64,000 nucleotides of DNA from contig NZ_BJMN01000005.1 of the NCBI RefSeq assembly GCF_006539185.1, positions 124,001 to 188,000 of the forward strand, read 5' to 3'. Positions 21,663 to 25,833 of the stretch are shown piece after piece. The translations under genes and the position numbers were made by a program. The number at the start of each line of letters is the position of its first letter. Within the stretch, counting starts at the first letter, position 1. The notes under the pieces are model-generated. The model saw nothing but the letters and a program-made list of their open reading frames with translations. It ran no database searches and had not been told where the DNA came from. Origin of the DNA: Streptomyces gardneri (GTDB taxonomy: Bacteria; Actinomycetota; Actinomycetes; Streptomycetales; Streptomycetaceae).

Positions 21663-21852
21663 CGCAGCGTAGTCGGCGGGCGGGTGCCGGAGGCGGTCCG
21701 TACGGCGGAAGGGTGGCTTCCCGCCCGGCAGACAGGAAAAACTTCGGTCCCCATGGGGGTCGCACAGGATAATTTCTCTTCCTCCCCTTGTGTTGAGGAA
21801 CCGTGGATGGTTACGGTGTCTTAACGCGAGGTTCTCCTGTGGAGGAAGAGGC

Positions 21853-23259
21853 ATGACGGAAATTCTTGTGCAGGACGTGACCGGTGGGGCCATATCCGCC
21901 GATGCCCGGGTGATCGACCACCCGGCTTGGGCCGAGCTCAAGAATGCCGTGGAAGCGATCCGCCCCTGGCAGAACGCCGACGGCTCCATCGACTTCGAGG
22001 CCGAGGGCGCCCCCGCCCGCGCGCTCGTCGAGCTGACCGTGGACCGCCTGGTCGCCACCGTCGAGCAGCTCTCCCCGCTCGTCCCGCACGACGGCGCCTA
22101 CCACCGCGCCCTCGTCACGGACCTGCGCAAGTGGGTCGAGAGCGGCTTCACCGTGCCGGACTTCCTGGACTCCCTGATGGAGTTCCACCCGGCCGCCGGC
22201 CGTGCCGACGGGCTCCAGCACCTCGTGCTCTTCCCGATGTACACGCAGAACGGCAACCTGGACCGCAACTTCGAGGCCGTCGTGCTGCGCATGGTCTGGC
22301 CGGAGTGGCTCTCCGAGCTGGAGCGCACCCGCTACGACAACCCGGGCTTCTGCGGCATCACCTTCGAGGACTTCACCGCCGGGTACGACACCAACTCGGC
22401 CGTCCTCTTCCCGGAGACCGTCGCCGTCCGCGAGGTCCCCGAGCGCTTCACCTGGGGCGGCATCTTCTGCGACCGCGAGGCCGCGCGCTTCCGCAAGGTC
22501 ACCGAGGCCGCGGTCGACACCCTCGGCGTGAAGCTGCCCGAGGACATCGCCGTCATGCTCGGCGACCAGGAGCGCTGCCAGCAGGCCTTCGCCCTCTGGG
22601 ACCTGGTCCACGACCGCGCCCACAGCCGCGGCGACCTGCCCTTCGACCCCTTCATGATCAAGCAGCGCCAGCCGTTCTGGATGTACGGCCTTGAGGAGCT
22701 CCGCTGCGACCTCACCGCCTTCAAGGAGGCCGTGAAGCTGGAGGCCGAGGGCAACAGCCACGGCCGCGACGTGCAGTACGCGGTCCTGTTCGACCGGATG
22801 TTCCGCTTCCCGCTCACCGGCGACCGCAACCGCAACTACGACGGTCTGGGCGGCCAGCTCCTCTTCGCGTTCCTCCACAAGAACGACGTGGTGCGCTGGA
22901 CGGACAACGTCCTCACGATCGACTGGGACCGCGCCCCCGAGGTCACCAACCGTCTCTGCTCCGAGATCGAGACCCTCTACCGCGACGGCATCGACCGTCC
23001 GAAGCTGGTCCACTGGTTCAAGGCGTACGAGTTCGTCACCACCTACCTCTCCCCGCACCCGGGATCGAAGTGGGCCAAGGGTCCGGACGCCCTGGACCTG
23101 TCGCTGCCGCCGCGCAAGCTGGTCGACGACGTGCTTCCGGACGAGTTTCCGCTCAGCATGTTCTTTGAGGCCCTCGCCAAGAAGCTGAAGGGCGTGATCG
23201 CCGACACCAAGGGGATCACCGCCGCCGACGTCCCGAGCACCGAGCGGGTCGCCGCGTGA
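21853..23259 (+). CDS. DUF6421 family protein, possible HDxxH metallo-enzyme
   Basis: About 468 residues, soluble, conserved in actinobacteria, no known function. By eye it carries His253-Asp-Arg-Ala-His257 (WDLVHDRAHSRGDL) and, 24 residues on, Glu281-Glu282-Leu-Arg-Cys-Asp286 in YGLEELRCDL. This resembles a gluzincin zinc site in which the HExxH glutamate is replaced by Asp, with a downstream Glu ligand, recalling the HExxxH...EExRAE pair of M49 peptidases (inference). ATG 21853 has GGAGG nearby and is better supported than the upstream ATG. It is the first gene of an operon with an SDR (35-base gap) and a threonine aldolase, so it may act on an amino-acid-like substrate. Confidence 0.83.
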   Translation: MTEILVQDVTGGAISADARVIDHPAWAELKNAVEAIRPWQNADGSIDFEAEGAPARALVELTVDRLVATVEQLSPLVPHDGAYHRALVTDLRKWVESGFTVPDFLDSLMEFHPAAGRADGLQHLVLFPMYTQNGNLDRNFEAVVLRMVWPEWLSELERTRYDNPGFCGITFEDFTAGYDTNSAVLFPETVAVREVPERFTWGGIFCDREAARFRKVTEAAVDTLGVKLPEDIAVMLGDQERCQQAFALWDLVHDRAHSRGDLPFDPFMIKQRQPFWMYGLEELRCDLTAFKEAVKLEAEGNSHGRDVQYAVLFDRMFRFPLTGDRNRNYDGLGGQLLFAFLHKNDVVRWTDNVLTIDWDRAPEVTNRLCSEIETLYRDGIDRPKLVHWFKAYEFVTTYLSPHPGSKWAKGPDALDLSLPPRKLVDDVLPDEFPLSMFFEALAKKLKGVIADTKGITAADVPSTERVAA

Positions 23260-23294
23260 GCGACCTCATCGAGGACACGCAGGAGGCGACGCCC

Positions 23295-24056
23295 ATGAAC
23301 GCCAACGGAAACGGTGGACCGCTCGACGGTGCCGTCATCGCGGTGGCCGGCGCGGCCGGCCCCGCGGGCCGCGCGACACTGCTGCGTCTCGCCGAGGCGG
23401 GCGCGACCGTCGTCGGCTCCGACGCCGACCCGGCGCGCCTCGCGGAGGCCGTCGACGCCGCCCGCTACGCCCACGGCGGCGCCCGGGTCATCGGCGACAC
23501 GGTCGACCTGCTCGACCTGGACGCCACCCGCGACTGGGCCGCGAAGACCGAGAAGGAGTTCGGCCGGATCGACGGCCTGGTCCACCTCGTCGGCGGCTGG
23601 CGCGGCAGCTCCTCCTTCACGGAGACCGAGCTCAAGGACTGGGACTTCCTGGAGAAGCTCCTCATCCGTACCGTCCAGCACACCTCGCTCGCCTTCCACG
23701 ACGGGCTGCTGCGCGCCGGCGGACGCGGCCGGTACGCCCTGATCAGCCAGGTCGGCGCGCACAAGCCGCTCGCCAACAACGCCGCGTACAACGCCGGCAA
23801 GGCGGCCGCGGAGGCCTGGACCCTCGCCATGGCGGACTCGTTCCGCAAGCTGGGGGGCGACGACGGCCCGCAGGCGGCTGCTGCGATCCTGGTGATCAAG
23901 GCACTGGTGCACGACGCCATGCGCGCCGAGCGCCCCACCGCGAAGTTCGCGGGCTTCACCGACGTCAAGGACCTGGCCGACGAGATCGCCGGCCTGTGGG
24001 AAAAGCCCGCCCAGGAAGTGAATGGACAGCGTCTGTGGCTGACCCCCAAGCCGTGA
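23295..24056 (+). CDS. SDR family NAD(P)-dependent oxidoreductase
   Basis: About 253 residues. Rossmann nucleotide loop VAGAAGPAGRATL near residue 17 (a variant of TGxxxGxG), NAG-region equivalent VHLVGGWRG, and catalytic Tyr165-x-x-x-Lys169 in NAAYNAGKAA. Reduces or oxidises a hydroxy/keto group; substrate unknown. ATG 23295 has AGGAGG eight bases upstream; an earlier GTG at 23256 overlapping the DUF6421 stop is possible but less supported. Its stop overlaps the GTG of the threonine aldolase gene, so the two are translationally coupled, and together with DUF6421 they look like one pathway. Confidence 0.88.
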   Translation: MNANGNGGPLDGAVIAVAGAAGPAGRATLLRLAEAGATVVGSDADPARLAEAVDAARYAHGGARVIGDTVDLLDLDATRDWAAKTEKEFGRIDGLVHLVGGWRGSSSFTETELKDWDFLEKLLIRTVQHTSLAFHDGLLRAGGRGRYALISQVGAHKPLANNAAYNAGKAAAEAWTLAMADSFRKLGGDDGPQAAAAILVIKALVHDAMRAERPTAKFAGFTDVKDLADEIAGLWEKPAQEVNGQRLWLTPKP

Positions 24057-25135
24057 CAGCGGGCCCCGGCCCCAGGACCGACGCACGTCGTCGCCACGAC
24101 CCGTCGGTCCGGGGCTTCGCCAGCGACAACTACGCCGGCGCCCACCCCGAGATCCTCGCGGCTCTCGCCCTCGCCAACGAAGGCCATCAGGTCGCCTACG
24201 GCGAGGACCAGTACACCGAGCACCTCCAGCGCGTCATCCACAGCCACTTCGGAGCCGGCGCGGAGGCCTTCCCGGTCTTCAACGGCACCGGGGCCAACGT
24301 GACCGCGCTGCAGGCGCTCACGGACCGCTGGGGCGCCGTCATCTGCGCCGAGTCCGCGCACATCAACGTGGACGAGGGCGGAGCGCCCGAGCGGATGGGC
24401 GGCCTCAAGCTGCTCACCGTGCCGACCCCGGACGGCAAGCTCACCCCCGAGCTGATCGACCGGCAGGCCTGGGGCTGGGAGGACGAGCACCGGGCGATGC
24501 CGCAGGTCGTCTCGATCACCCAGAACACCGAGCTTGGCACGGTCTACACGGTCGAGGAGATCCGCGCGATCGTCGAGCACGCCCATGCCAAGGGCATGAA
24601 GGTGCACCTCGACGGGGCCCGCATCGCCAACGCCGCCGCCTCGCTGGACGTGCCGATGCGCGCGTTCACCAACGCGGTGGGCGTGGACGTGATATCGTAC
24701 GGCGGGACGAAGAACGGCATGATCTTCGGCGAGGCCGTGATCGTCCTCAACCCGGACGCGGTCAGCCACATGAAGCACCTGCGCAAGCTGTCCATGCAGC
24801 TCGCCTCCAAGATGCGCTTCGTGTCGGTGCAGCTGGAGGCGCTCCTCGCCAAGGACCTGTGGCTGCGCAACGCCCAGCACGCCAACGCGATGGCCCAGCG
24901 CCTCGCGGCGGGCGTGCGCGCGGTCGACGGGGTGGAGATCCTCTACCCGGTGCAGGCCAACGCGGTCTTCGCGCGGCTTCCGCACGAGGTGACCAGGCGC
25001 CTGCAGGAACGGTTCCGCTTCTACTTCTGGGACGAGGCCGCCGGCGACGTGCGCTGGATGTGCGCCTTCGACACCACGGAGGACGACGTGGACGCCTTCC
25101 TCCAGGCTCTCAAGGAAGAGATGGCGCGGCAGTAG
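24053..25135 (+). CDS. Low-specificity L-threonine aldolase family (beta-eliminating lyase)
   Basis: Fold-type I PLP enzyme of about 360 residues that cleaves beta-hydroxy amino acids to glycine and an aldehyde. SDNYAGAHPEI is the N-terminal substrate motif, FNGTGAN contacts the cofactor phosphate, HLDGARIANA holds the PLP-ring Asp, and SYGGTKNG carries the Schiff-base Lys (about residue 220). GTG 24053 overlaps the preceding SDR stop by four bases; GTG 24035 is an alternative start. It is followed by a strong hairpin terminator, which ends the DUF6421-SDR-aldolase operon. Confidence 0.93.
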   Translation: MTAGPGPRTDARRRHDPSVRGFASDNYAGAHPEILAALALANEGHQVAYGEDQYTEHLQRVIHSHFGAGAEAFPVFNGTGANVTALQALTDRWGAVICAESAHINVDEGGAPERMGGLKLLTVPTPDGKLTPELIDRQAWGWEDEHRAMPQVVSITQNTELGTVYTVEEIRAIVEHAHAKGMKVHLDGARIANAAASLDVPMRAFTNAVGVDVISYGGTKNGMIFGEAVIVLNPDAVSHMKHLRKLSMQLASKMRFVSVQLEALLAKDLWLRNAQHANAMAQRLAAGVRAVDGVEILYPVQANAVFARLPHEVTRRLQERFRFYFWDEAAGDVRWMCAFDTTEDDVDAFLQALKEEMARQ

Positions 25136-25177
25136 TCGCCCCGCGAGTGGTCAGCCCCGCGTGACTGCATGAATATA

Positions 25178-25214
25178 CGGCCGGACGGAAAGTCATTGAC
25201 TTCCGTCCGGCCGT
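25178..25214 (+). terminator. Terminator after the threonine aldolase operon
   Basis: An 18-bp stem (left from 25178, right to 25214) with one bulged A and a very short loop, ACGGCCGGACGG opposite CCGTCCGGCCGT, followed by TTTCC. It ends about 20 bases before the ATG of the transglutaminase gene, so that gene may be transcribed from within or just after the hairpin, or depend on readthrough. Confidence 0.85.
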
Positions 25215-25233: not shown

Positions 25234-25833
25234 ATGGAACTCGTGCAGCAGCACTCTGATGTCTCGGCCTACCTGGCAGTCGGCGAGGCGGTCGATCATG
25301 ACCACCCCTTGGTCGGGGAGGTCGCGACCCGGCTCGCAGACGTGCATCCCGACGCATACTCATACGCCGAAGCGGCCTTCGCGTACGTCCGCGACACCAT
25401 CCCGCACTCCCAGGACTCGGGCGACCTCCGCGTCACCTGGCGCGCCTCAGACGTCCTGGAGCAGGGCACCGGTATCTGCTACGCCAAGTCCGTCGCGTAC
25501 GCCGCGCTCCTGCGGGCCCGCTCCATCCCGGCCGCCCTCTGCTACCAGCGGCTCGCGGAGGACGACGGCACGAACCCCGTGATCCACGGCCTCGTCGCCG
25601 TCCTGCTGCCCGGCGAGCGGGAGTGGGCCCGGCAGGACGTGCGGGGGAACAAGCCGGGCGTCGACGCCCGGTTCTCGCTGGGGGAGGAGCGCCTCGCCTG
25701 GACCGTACGGCCGGAGCTCGGCGAGGTGGACTACCCGCAGCTGTACGCCGAACCGCACCCGGCCGTCCTGGGCGCGCTGAAGGCGGCCCCGGACCGGCTG
25801 TACCTCTGGCGGACGCTCCCTGCGGAGCTGTGA
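25234..25833 (+). CDS. Transglutaminase-like domain protein
   Basis: About 199 residues forming a papain-like transglutaminase core: Cys82 in GTGICYAKSVAYAALLRA, His118 in PVIHGLVAV, and Asp144 in GVDARFS, spaced as in bacterial transglutaminase-like proteins. These act as proteases, amidases or peptide ligases; the substrate is unknown. No signal peptide, so cytoplasmic. ATG 25234 lacks a Shine-Dalgarno and directly follows the aldolase terminator by 19 bases, an unusual location that may mean a leaderless or very short 5' leader. It is convergent with the acyltransferase gene. Confidence 0.87.
   Translation: MELVQQHSDVSAYLAVGEAVDHDHPLVGEVATRLADVHPDAYSYAEAAFAYVRDTIPHSQDSGDLRVTWRASDVLEQGTGICYAKSVAYAALLRARSIPAALCYQRLAEDDGTNPVIHGLVAVLLPGEREWARQDVRGNKPGVDARFSLGEERLAWTVRPELGEVDYPQLYAEPHPAVLGALKAAPDRLYLWRTLPAEL

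Follow-up and report, generated by a model that had tools for sequence, protein, structure and literature searches.

PolE, an enzyme of polyoxin biosynthesis and a member of the protein family DUF6421, catalyses the desaturation of L-Ile, for which it requires Fe2+, O2 and tetrahydrobiopterin (PMC12614342; all statements from this paper refer to the part of its text that was available). Here a three-gene operon of Streptomyces gardneri is described, in which a DUF6421 gene is followed by genes for a short-chain dehydrogenase/reductase (SDR) and for a threonine-aldolase-like enzyme dependent on pyridoxal phosphate (PLP). The three genes are co-directional on the forward strand and span positions 21853 to 25135 of the window, i.e., of the whole stretch of DNA that was analysed (64,000 nt; contig NZ_BJMN01000005.1, positions 124,001 to 188,000). 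An earlier note on this stretch had tentatively read the products as a hydrolase, a dehydrogenase and a C-C lyase acting on hydroxy amino acids; its gene coordinates and reading frames proved correct (Table 1). We propose instead that the three genes form a module for the pterin-dependent oxygenation of an amino acid, consisting of an oxygenase, a pterin reductase similar to quinonoid dihydropteridine reductase (QDPR) and a beta-hydroxy-amino-acid aldolase. This reading is held with about even confidence.

Soluble mutants of the HExxHxnE motif of PolE are reported to be inactive, and the activity of the enzyme goes up about 2-3 times with added QDPR (PMC12614342). Its authors describe the DUF6421 structure as similar to that of dipeptidyl peptidase III (DPP III), with the HExxGH motif and the catalytic His of DPP III not conserved, count about 10,000 DUF6421 homologues and propose that the whole family is Fe/pterin-dependent. 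A partner gene similar to QDPR is not mentioned in the available text, and the QDPR of the assay was purchased. The enzyme family is already published, and what is new, on sequence comparison, is that the SDR of the operon is specifically similar to QDPR in its substrate half.

The DUF6421 protein compared with PolE and DPP III

A search of Protein Data Bank (PDB) sequences with the window DUF6421 protein placed PolE entries at the top (E 2.8e-12), as did a profile search (E 2.9e-15). In the comparison of a structure model of the protein with the PDB, the PolE entries (9j2e, 9j3g) score Z 29.2-29.8, with a root-mean-square deviation of 3.6 over 358 residues at Z 29.8. The DPP III entries score Z 17.6-9.5 (6eom, Z 17.6, deviation 4.2 over 369 residues), and the next other row scores 4.8. 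The model has a mean predicted local distance difference test score of 73.6, with weak loops (among them residues 260-272), and the alignments behind the structure models contain only close relatives (74-84% identity).

PolE and the window protein have in common the family, the fold, the HD/ExxH and EELR motifs and an amino-acid context. The two motifs to which the earlier note had pointed, HDRAH and EELRCD, are present exactly as it gave them. It had asked whether their His and Glu residues are invariant, and this was found for H253, H257, E281 and E282, as well as for D254, L283, R284 and D286, in all 41 aligned DUF6421 proteins; R255 and C285 are kept in at least 90% of these, and A256 is variable. 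By residue numbering, E282 would be the counterpart of PolE Glu230. If the third-ligand Glu is expected at X21-23 after the second His, E281 stands at X23 and E282 at X24, both of them invariant. The idea of a metal site is retained, since the invariant residues and the fold match to PolE make DUF6421 a candidate metallo-enzyme with a His/His/Glu site. It is probably an Fe/pterin-oxidase-type protein with a DPP III-like fold, its dependence on Fe(II), O2 and tetrahydropterin being taken from PolE. Of the three SnPolE residues mutated by the depositors, F140 and Y280 are retained as F186 and Y329.

The window protein shares an EExRxE/D-like second motif with M49 peptidases, the class of DPP III, and the earlier note had compared it with these enzymes. 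If DUF6421 were a zinc hydrolase of the gluzincin/M49 kind, the SDR and the aldolase would process the hydroxy amino acid that it frees. The likeness is real at the fold level, with DPP III as the second-best match, and HDxxH and EExRxD, which resemble zinc-peptidase motifs, are invariant. However PolE, an Fe/pterin oxidase, fits far better; the window protein has Asp in place of the Glu of HExxH, and HDxxH where DPP III has HExxGH, a motif reported as not conserved in DUF6421 together with the catalytic His (PMC12614342). The comparison with M49 is therefore right for the fold and most likely wrong for the chemistry, and DUF6421 as a hydrolase, which we hold to be very improbable, was dropped.

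The substrate half of the SDR resembles QDPR

Most SDRs carry the motif NNAG at a place where dihydropteridine reductase has GGW. The operon SDR has GGW at this place, as do the five QDPR alignments shown by the profile search described below, whereas the seven SDRs of its own genome that were examined have NNAG, ANAG or NAAG, and none has GGW.

A profile of the substrate half of the SDR was used to search 177,635 PDB sequences. The six top matches (E 1.7e-11 to 4.1e-9) are without exception dihydropteridine reductases, one more stands at rank 12, and the alignments span 141 to 152 of 155 positions. QDPR came first only once the N-terminal cofactor half of the SDR was left out. The profile holds 24 of 35 aligned SDR rows; it omits L073-L077, which have a different C-terminus or stand apart, the close relatives L064, L066, L088, L090 and L093, and L062, and the 35-row alignment itself omits two truncated frames (L061, L070) of 36. 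A control profile, for which seven ordinary SDRs of the window genome (seven of eight paralogues, with L194 omitted) were cut to the corresponding half, has no QDPR in its best 60 of 754 matches. When scored with the operon SDR profile, QDPR segments reach 42-49 bits vs 11-31 bits for the seven ordinary SDRs. A profile of the C-terminal quarter (25 of 30 pieces) has three QDPRs among its ten matches (E 0.69-0.89).

The QDPRs found (PDB 8b5t, 8b5u, 1hdr, 9dtw, 1dhr, 1ooe and 3orf) are like the operon SDR in YxxxK, in GGW and in the substrate half. On the half profile and its controls, a QDPR-like pterin reductase accounts better for the operon SDR than does the dehydrogenase on hydroxy amino acids of the earlier note.

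Distribution and coupling of the three genes

PF19985, the Pfam family of DUF6421, is present in all but one of 150 sampled genomes (149/150) of the family to which the window belongs (taken as Streptomycetaceae). Among 394 genomes of the window's class it was found in 104, i.e., in 40/40 within the genus and in 64/354 outside, and 106 genomes of this sample have an SDR of the operon type (E <= 1e-20). Outside the genus, 58 genomes have both, 6 have DUF6421 only, 8 have the SDR only and 282 have neither (Fisher p 2e-50, uncorrected for kinship). Thus the SDR type occurs in 58 of 64 genomes with DUF6421 vs 8 of 290 others, and in 54 of the 58 the two genes are adjacent.

Gene order was compared in 40 chosen neighbourhoods from 17 families. 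The SDR gene adjoins DUF6421 in 35 of them, an aldolase gene lies within 1.5 kb of DUF6421 in 35 (in one, L094, in broken frames), and 32 have all three genes; the complete operon was found at least once in 14 of the families. All three genes are also present in 79 of 80 named genome loci, the remaining one being cut by a contig end. This conservation of gene order, which the earlier note had suggested as a check, is far beyond chance.

Four of the eight genomes with the SDR only are those in which it lies beside an aldolase gene (see below). In the other four, the motif is GGA in L207 and L208, L209 has GGW and no aldolase match, and L213 is a weak match without GGW. The relatives in L207 and L208 also have Gln for the Lys of YxxxK and lie beside peptide-transporter solute-binding genes; they are possibly degenerate copies.

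Evidence against a pterin reductase, and a possible other role for the SDR

It should be noted that a number of results weigh against the module as proposed. On the side of the SDR, a single-sequence search with the substrate half gives QDPR only E 0.14-0.34, at ranks 12, 14, 15 and 19. QDPR is missing from the best 60 of 135 matches of phmmer with the whole SDR, from the best 60 of 523 of a full-length profile, and from the best 50 rows each of Foldseek and VIA-align with the SDR model, although absence from the best matches of whole-length and fold searches excludes nothing. The full-length profile and the fold comparisons list generic SDRs, an NCBIfam scan of the operon SDRs has generic families among the matches listed, and the N-terminal half is generic, unlike QDPR. 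In addition, the operon SDR keeps Ser (Thr in some) before the Tyr, where the QDPR segments have Gly or Ala, and it is therefore filed as QDPR-like and not as a QDPR member.

On the side of the oxygenase, identity to PolE is just 16-19% over the structural alignment, and the reaction of PolE is a desaturation and not a hydroxylation (PMC12614342). PolE also differs in its L-Ile substrate and its operon partners, and the window protein is longer than PolE. The counterpart of SnPolE Y157 is non-aromatic, with the alignment unsure at this residue (I204 or T200 by two alignments). As for coupling, SDR and aldolase genes are side by side without DUF6421 in L206 and L212 (with GGW) and in L210 and L211 (with GGY), and DUF6421 and aldolase genes occur without the SDR in 3 of the 40 chosen loci. 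PF01329 (pterin-4a-carbinolamine dehydratase) was rejected as a marker for DUF6421, as outside the genus the two show no association (45/64 genomes with DUF6421 vs 222/290 others). On the other side of the balance, the window genome, which has two PF01329 matches, has no match to PF00351 (aromatic amino-acid hydroxylase).

Since each pair of genes can occur without the third beside it, a rival role for the SDR should also be considered. With the oxygenase and the aldolase unchanged, the SDR could act on the carbon skeleton, either oxidising the hydroxylated amino acid or reducing the released aldehyde, and the pterin would be recycled by another enzyme. The four SDR-aldolase pairs without DUF6421 fit such a role, as do the classical Ser-Tyr-Lys set kept by the operon SDR and the generic SDRs that full-length and fold comparisons give among the matches listed. 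However its substrate half is nearest to QDPR (see the controls above), and in three of the four loci of family f36 the DUF6421 and SDR genes are neighbours while no aldolase gene lies within 1.5 kb, although two of these three loci have one at distances of 2.3 and 5.1 kb. We consider a role on the carbon skeleton unlikely, though it has to be reckoned with, and keep the QDPR-like pterin reductase as the preferred reading of the second gene.

The aldolase and the proposed reactions

The third enzyme is like L-threonine aldolase 5vye (E 1.5e-80) and aldolase 1v72 (E 2.7e-75) in its PF01212 fold family, its PLP lysine and its high sequence similarity. The database entry of 1v72 says just "Aldolase", and we take it to be a phenylserine aldolase. 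Unlike L-threonine aldolases, the window enzyme is below the NCBIfam cut-offs of PRK10534 LTA (52.5 vs 312 bits) and GntG (100.2 vs 230 bits). The aldolase alignment of Table 1 contains the window sequence and 34 of 37 further ones, after omission of three short sequences.

In the proposed mechanism, DUF6421 would bind Fe(II) via H253, H257 and most likely E282, a DPP III-like fold being reused for O2 chemistry. With tetrahydropterin and O2 it would attack an L-amino acid at a C-H bond close to the beta carbon, to yield a beta-oxidised amino acid and, after water loss, quinonoid dihydropterin. The SDR would return the latter to tetrahydropterin with NAD(P)H, and the aldolase would split the beta-hydroxy-amino acid into glycine and an aldehyde. 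For the oxygenation step the basis is membership in DUF6421, with the Fe/pterin dependence taken from PolE (PMC12614342). For the recycling step it is the half-profile match and the coupling in genomes, which suggest a pterin as the SDR substrate. The cleavage step follows from the aldolase family, with beta-hydroxylation and the direction of the aldolase presumed. The earlier note had proposed an uncharacterised route that releases glycine and an aldehyde; this end of the route is kept in conditional form, and the hydrolase as its first enzyme is not. A self-contained oxidative cleavage of amino acids in Streptomyces and many other actinobacteria, by a DPP III-fold Fe/pterin oxygenase that acts as a beta-carbon hydroxylase, a dedicated bacterial QDPR with NADH and a PLP aldolase, is put forward tentatively and with some doubt.

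Alternatively the aldolase may work towards synthesis, or its substrate may be a desaturated or gamma-oxidised product; the operon would then make an unusual amino acid and not degrade one. The desaturation of L-Ile by PolE serves an antifungal, its authors expect DUF6421 genes in unusual-amino-acid pathways (PMC12614342), and some distant DUF6421 genes lie near nonribosomal peptide synthetase, P450 or ATP-grasp genes. However nearly every sampled genome of the window's family has the gene, and no neighbour beyond the operon recurs widely in 36 neighbourhoods from outside this family, the commonest being found at six loci of one family, followed by amino-acid-permease-like frames at five loci. 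On these grounds the operon looks like core metabolism, and a synthetic role is judged to be quite improbable.

Amino-acid-permease-like frames are found in 5 of 43 neighbourhoods (L078, L086, L094, L176 and L177), and aldehyde dehydrogenases of the succinate-semialdehyde dehydrogenase type in 4 of 43 (L069, L078, L086 and L176, with L086 and L176 near relatives). Such neighbours fit an amino-acid route through an aldehyde, but as hints only. In a Tsukamurella plasmid (L176) and a related genome (L086), genes for an APC permease and a succinate-semialdehyde dehydrogenase are found close to the operon together with gabT, and a link to gamma-aminobutyrate or polyamines is possible.

Junctions, flanking regions and a fourth gene

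The features of the locus are listed in Table 1. The earlier note had given the junction between DUF6421 and the SDR as a gap of 35 bases, which holds if the SDR starts at ATG 23295. With GTG 23256 as the start, the SDR gene would instead overlap the DUF6421 stop by 4 bases, and thus both junctions of the operon could be 4-base overlaps.

Table 1. Positions of genes, motifs and flanking elements of the operon in the window.
Feature	Position	Strand	Remarks
Conserved promoter-like pair (TTG, TACGGT) and leader ACGCGAGGTTCTCC	21787..21837	+	Alignments of 78 and 31 upstream regions
DUF6421 protein	21853..23259	+	468 aa; PF19985 723 bits vs cut-off 25, residues 23-457; proposed Fe(II)/pterin-dependent amino-acid oxygenase
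HDxxH motif, H253-H257	22609..22623	+	Two proposed metal ligands; exact; aligned with PolE HExxH
EELRCD, E281-D286	22693..22710	+	E282 proposed third metal ligand; aligned with PolE EELRVD
SDR	23295..24056	+	253 aa; possible earlier start GTG 23256; proposed QDPR-like pterin reductase
GGW motif, residues 100-102	23592..23600	+	At the usual SDR NNAG place; W in 34/35 aligned members, Y in one
YxxxK catalytic motif, Y165 and K169	23787..23801	+	Invariant in 35/35
PLP-dependent threonine-aldolase-like enzyme	24053..25135	+	360 aa; PF01212 175.9 bits; proposed beta-hydroxy-amino-acid aldolase
K220, expected PLP lysine (SYGGTKN)	24710..24712	+	K in 35/35 aligned aldolases
Hairpin 3′ of the operon, terminator candidate	25177..25214	+	-31.4 kcal/mol, z -7.7 vs shuffles; no U tract
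Transglutaminase-like gene	25234..25833	+	PF01841; fourth co-directional gene

The region 5′ of DUF6421 (21693-21855) is strongly conserved between the window and 77 relatives, with the blocks CAGGAAAAA, CAGGATAATTT, CTTG...TACGGT and ACGCGAGGTTCTCC. A general promoter scan reported nothing, and a hairpin at the ribosome-binding site of DUF6421 is within chance expectation (z -1.2). No Rfam match was found anywhere in the window at gathering scores.

The earlier note had the three genes end at one terminator, which holds only in part. A strong hairpin is indeed present behind the aldolase gene, but it has no U tract, a consensus terminator scan found no terminator, and the co-directional transglutaminase-like gene follows. 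Of 79 named loci, 63 have such a gene behind the aldolase.

In S. coelicolor, the operon SCO1089-1086 consists of four genes annotated as hypothetical protein, oxidoreductase, L-threonine aldolase and hypothetical protein, and is reported to have a SigB-dependent promoter (PMC8346170). Gene order and annotation suggest that it is the counterpart of the window operon. A scan of 350 upstream bases from the window and each of 77 relatives did not find the SigB promoter consensus, with 0/78 strict and 1/78 loose matches (control pieces, 0/1520 strict and 4/1520 loose). We therefore do not extend SigB control from S. coelicolor to the window genome.

DUF6421 genes in other settings

In 19 of the 40 chosen loci (e.g., L059:6118-8259), none of them in the window's family, DUF6421 carries an additional, fused N-terminal domain of about 250 aa. 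Its best Pfam matches are DUF4350/ABC_transp_aux, and it presumably resembles glutamine amidotransferases. Distant, plasmid-borne DUF6421 genes of Pseudoalteromonas, Pantoea (two) and Serpentinimonas (L179, L180, L181 and L185) each lie behind a small hypothetical gene of about 175-185 aa. Those of Pseudoalteromonas and Pantoea have ATP-grasp genes nearby, perhaps for amino-acid natural products. The surroundings of a divergent DUF6421 gene of a Nocardia plasmid (L178:5968-7323, 37% identical) include tryptophan 2,3-dioxygenase, and neither an SDR nor an aldolase is annotated next to it.

A contig labelled Microtetraspora glauca (L097) has a DUF6421 protein 90% identical to that of the window, as close as those of Streptomyces, and may be mislabelled or contaminated. 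Broken DUF6421 frames were also found: a small actinobacterial genome (G491:C63) has internal stops, and one from the window's family (G074:C4) has the frame in two overlapping pieces.

Relation to published work and meaning for the family

The literature searched comprised 5.39 million papers, with most subscription papers and supplements outside it. Within it DUF6421 is named only by the PolE study (PMC12614342) and PF19985 nowhere; the words "aldolase", "short-chain" and "operon" do not occur in the available main text of that study. Neither the combination of an oxygenase, a dedicated pterin reductase and an aldolase nor any link between threonine aldolase and pterins was found by the searches made in this literature.

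With the second gene as a likely pterin reductase, a testable role is given to an operon whose first gene is near-universal in the Streptomycetaceae sampled. The pterin cofactor cycle is best known from the aromatic amino-acid hydroxylases of animals. If the proposed reading is true, this cycle would be core metabolism in antibiotic producers. This would point, in Streptomyces, to free pterin that serves as a cofactor apart from folate synthesis and, in antibiotic producers, to a so far unassigned source of glycine and aldehydes.

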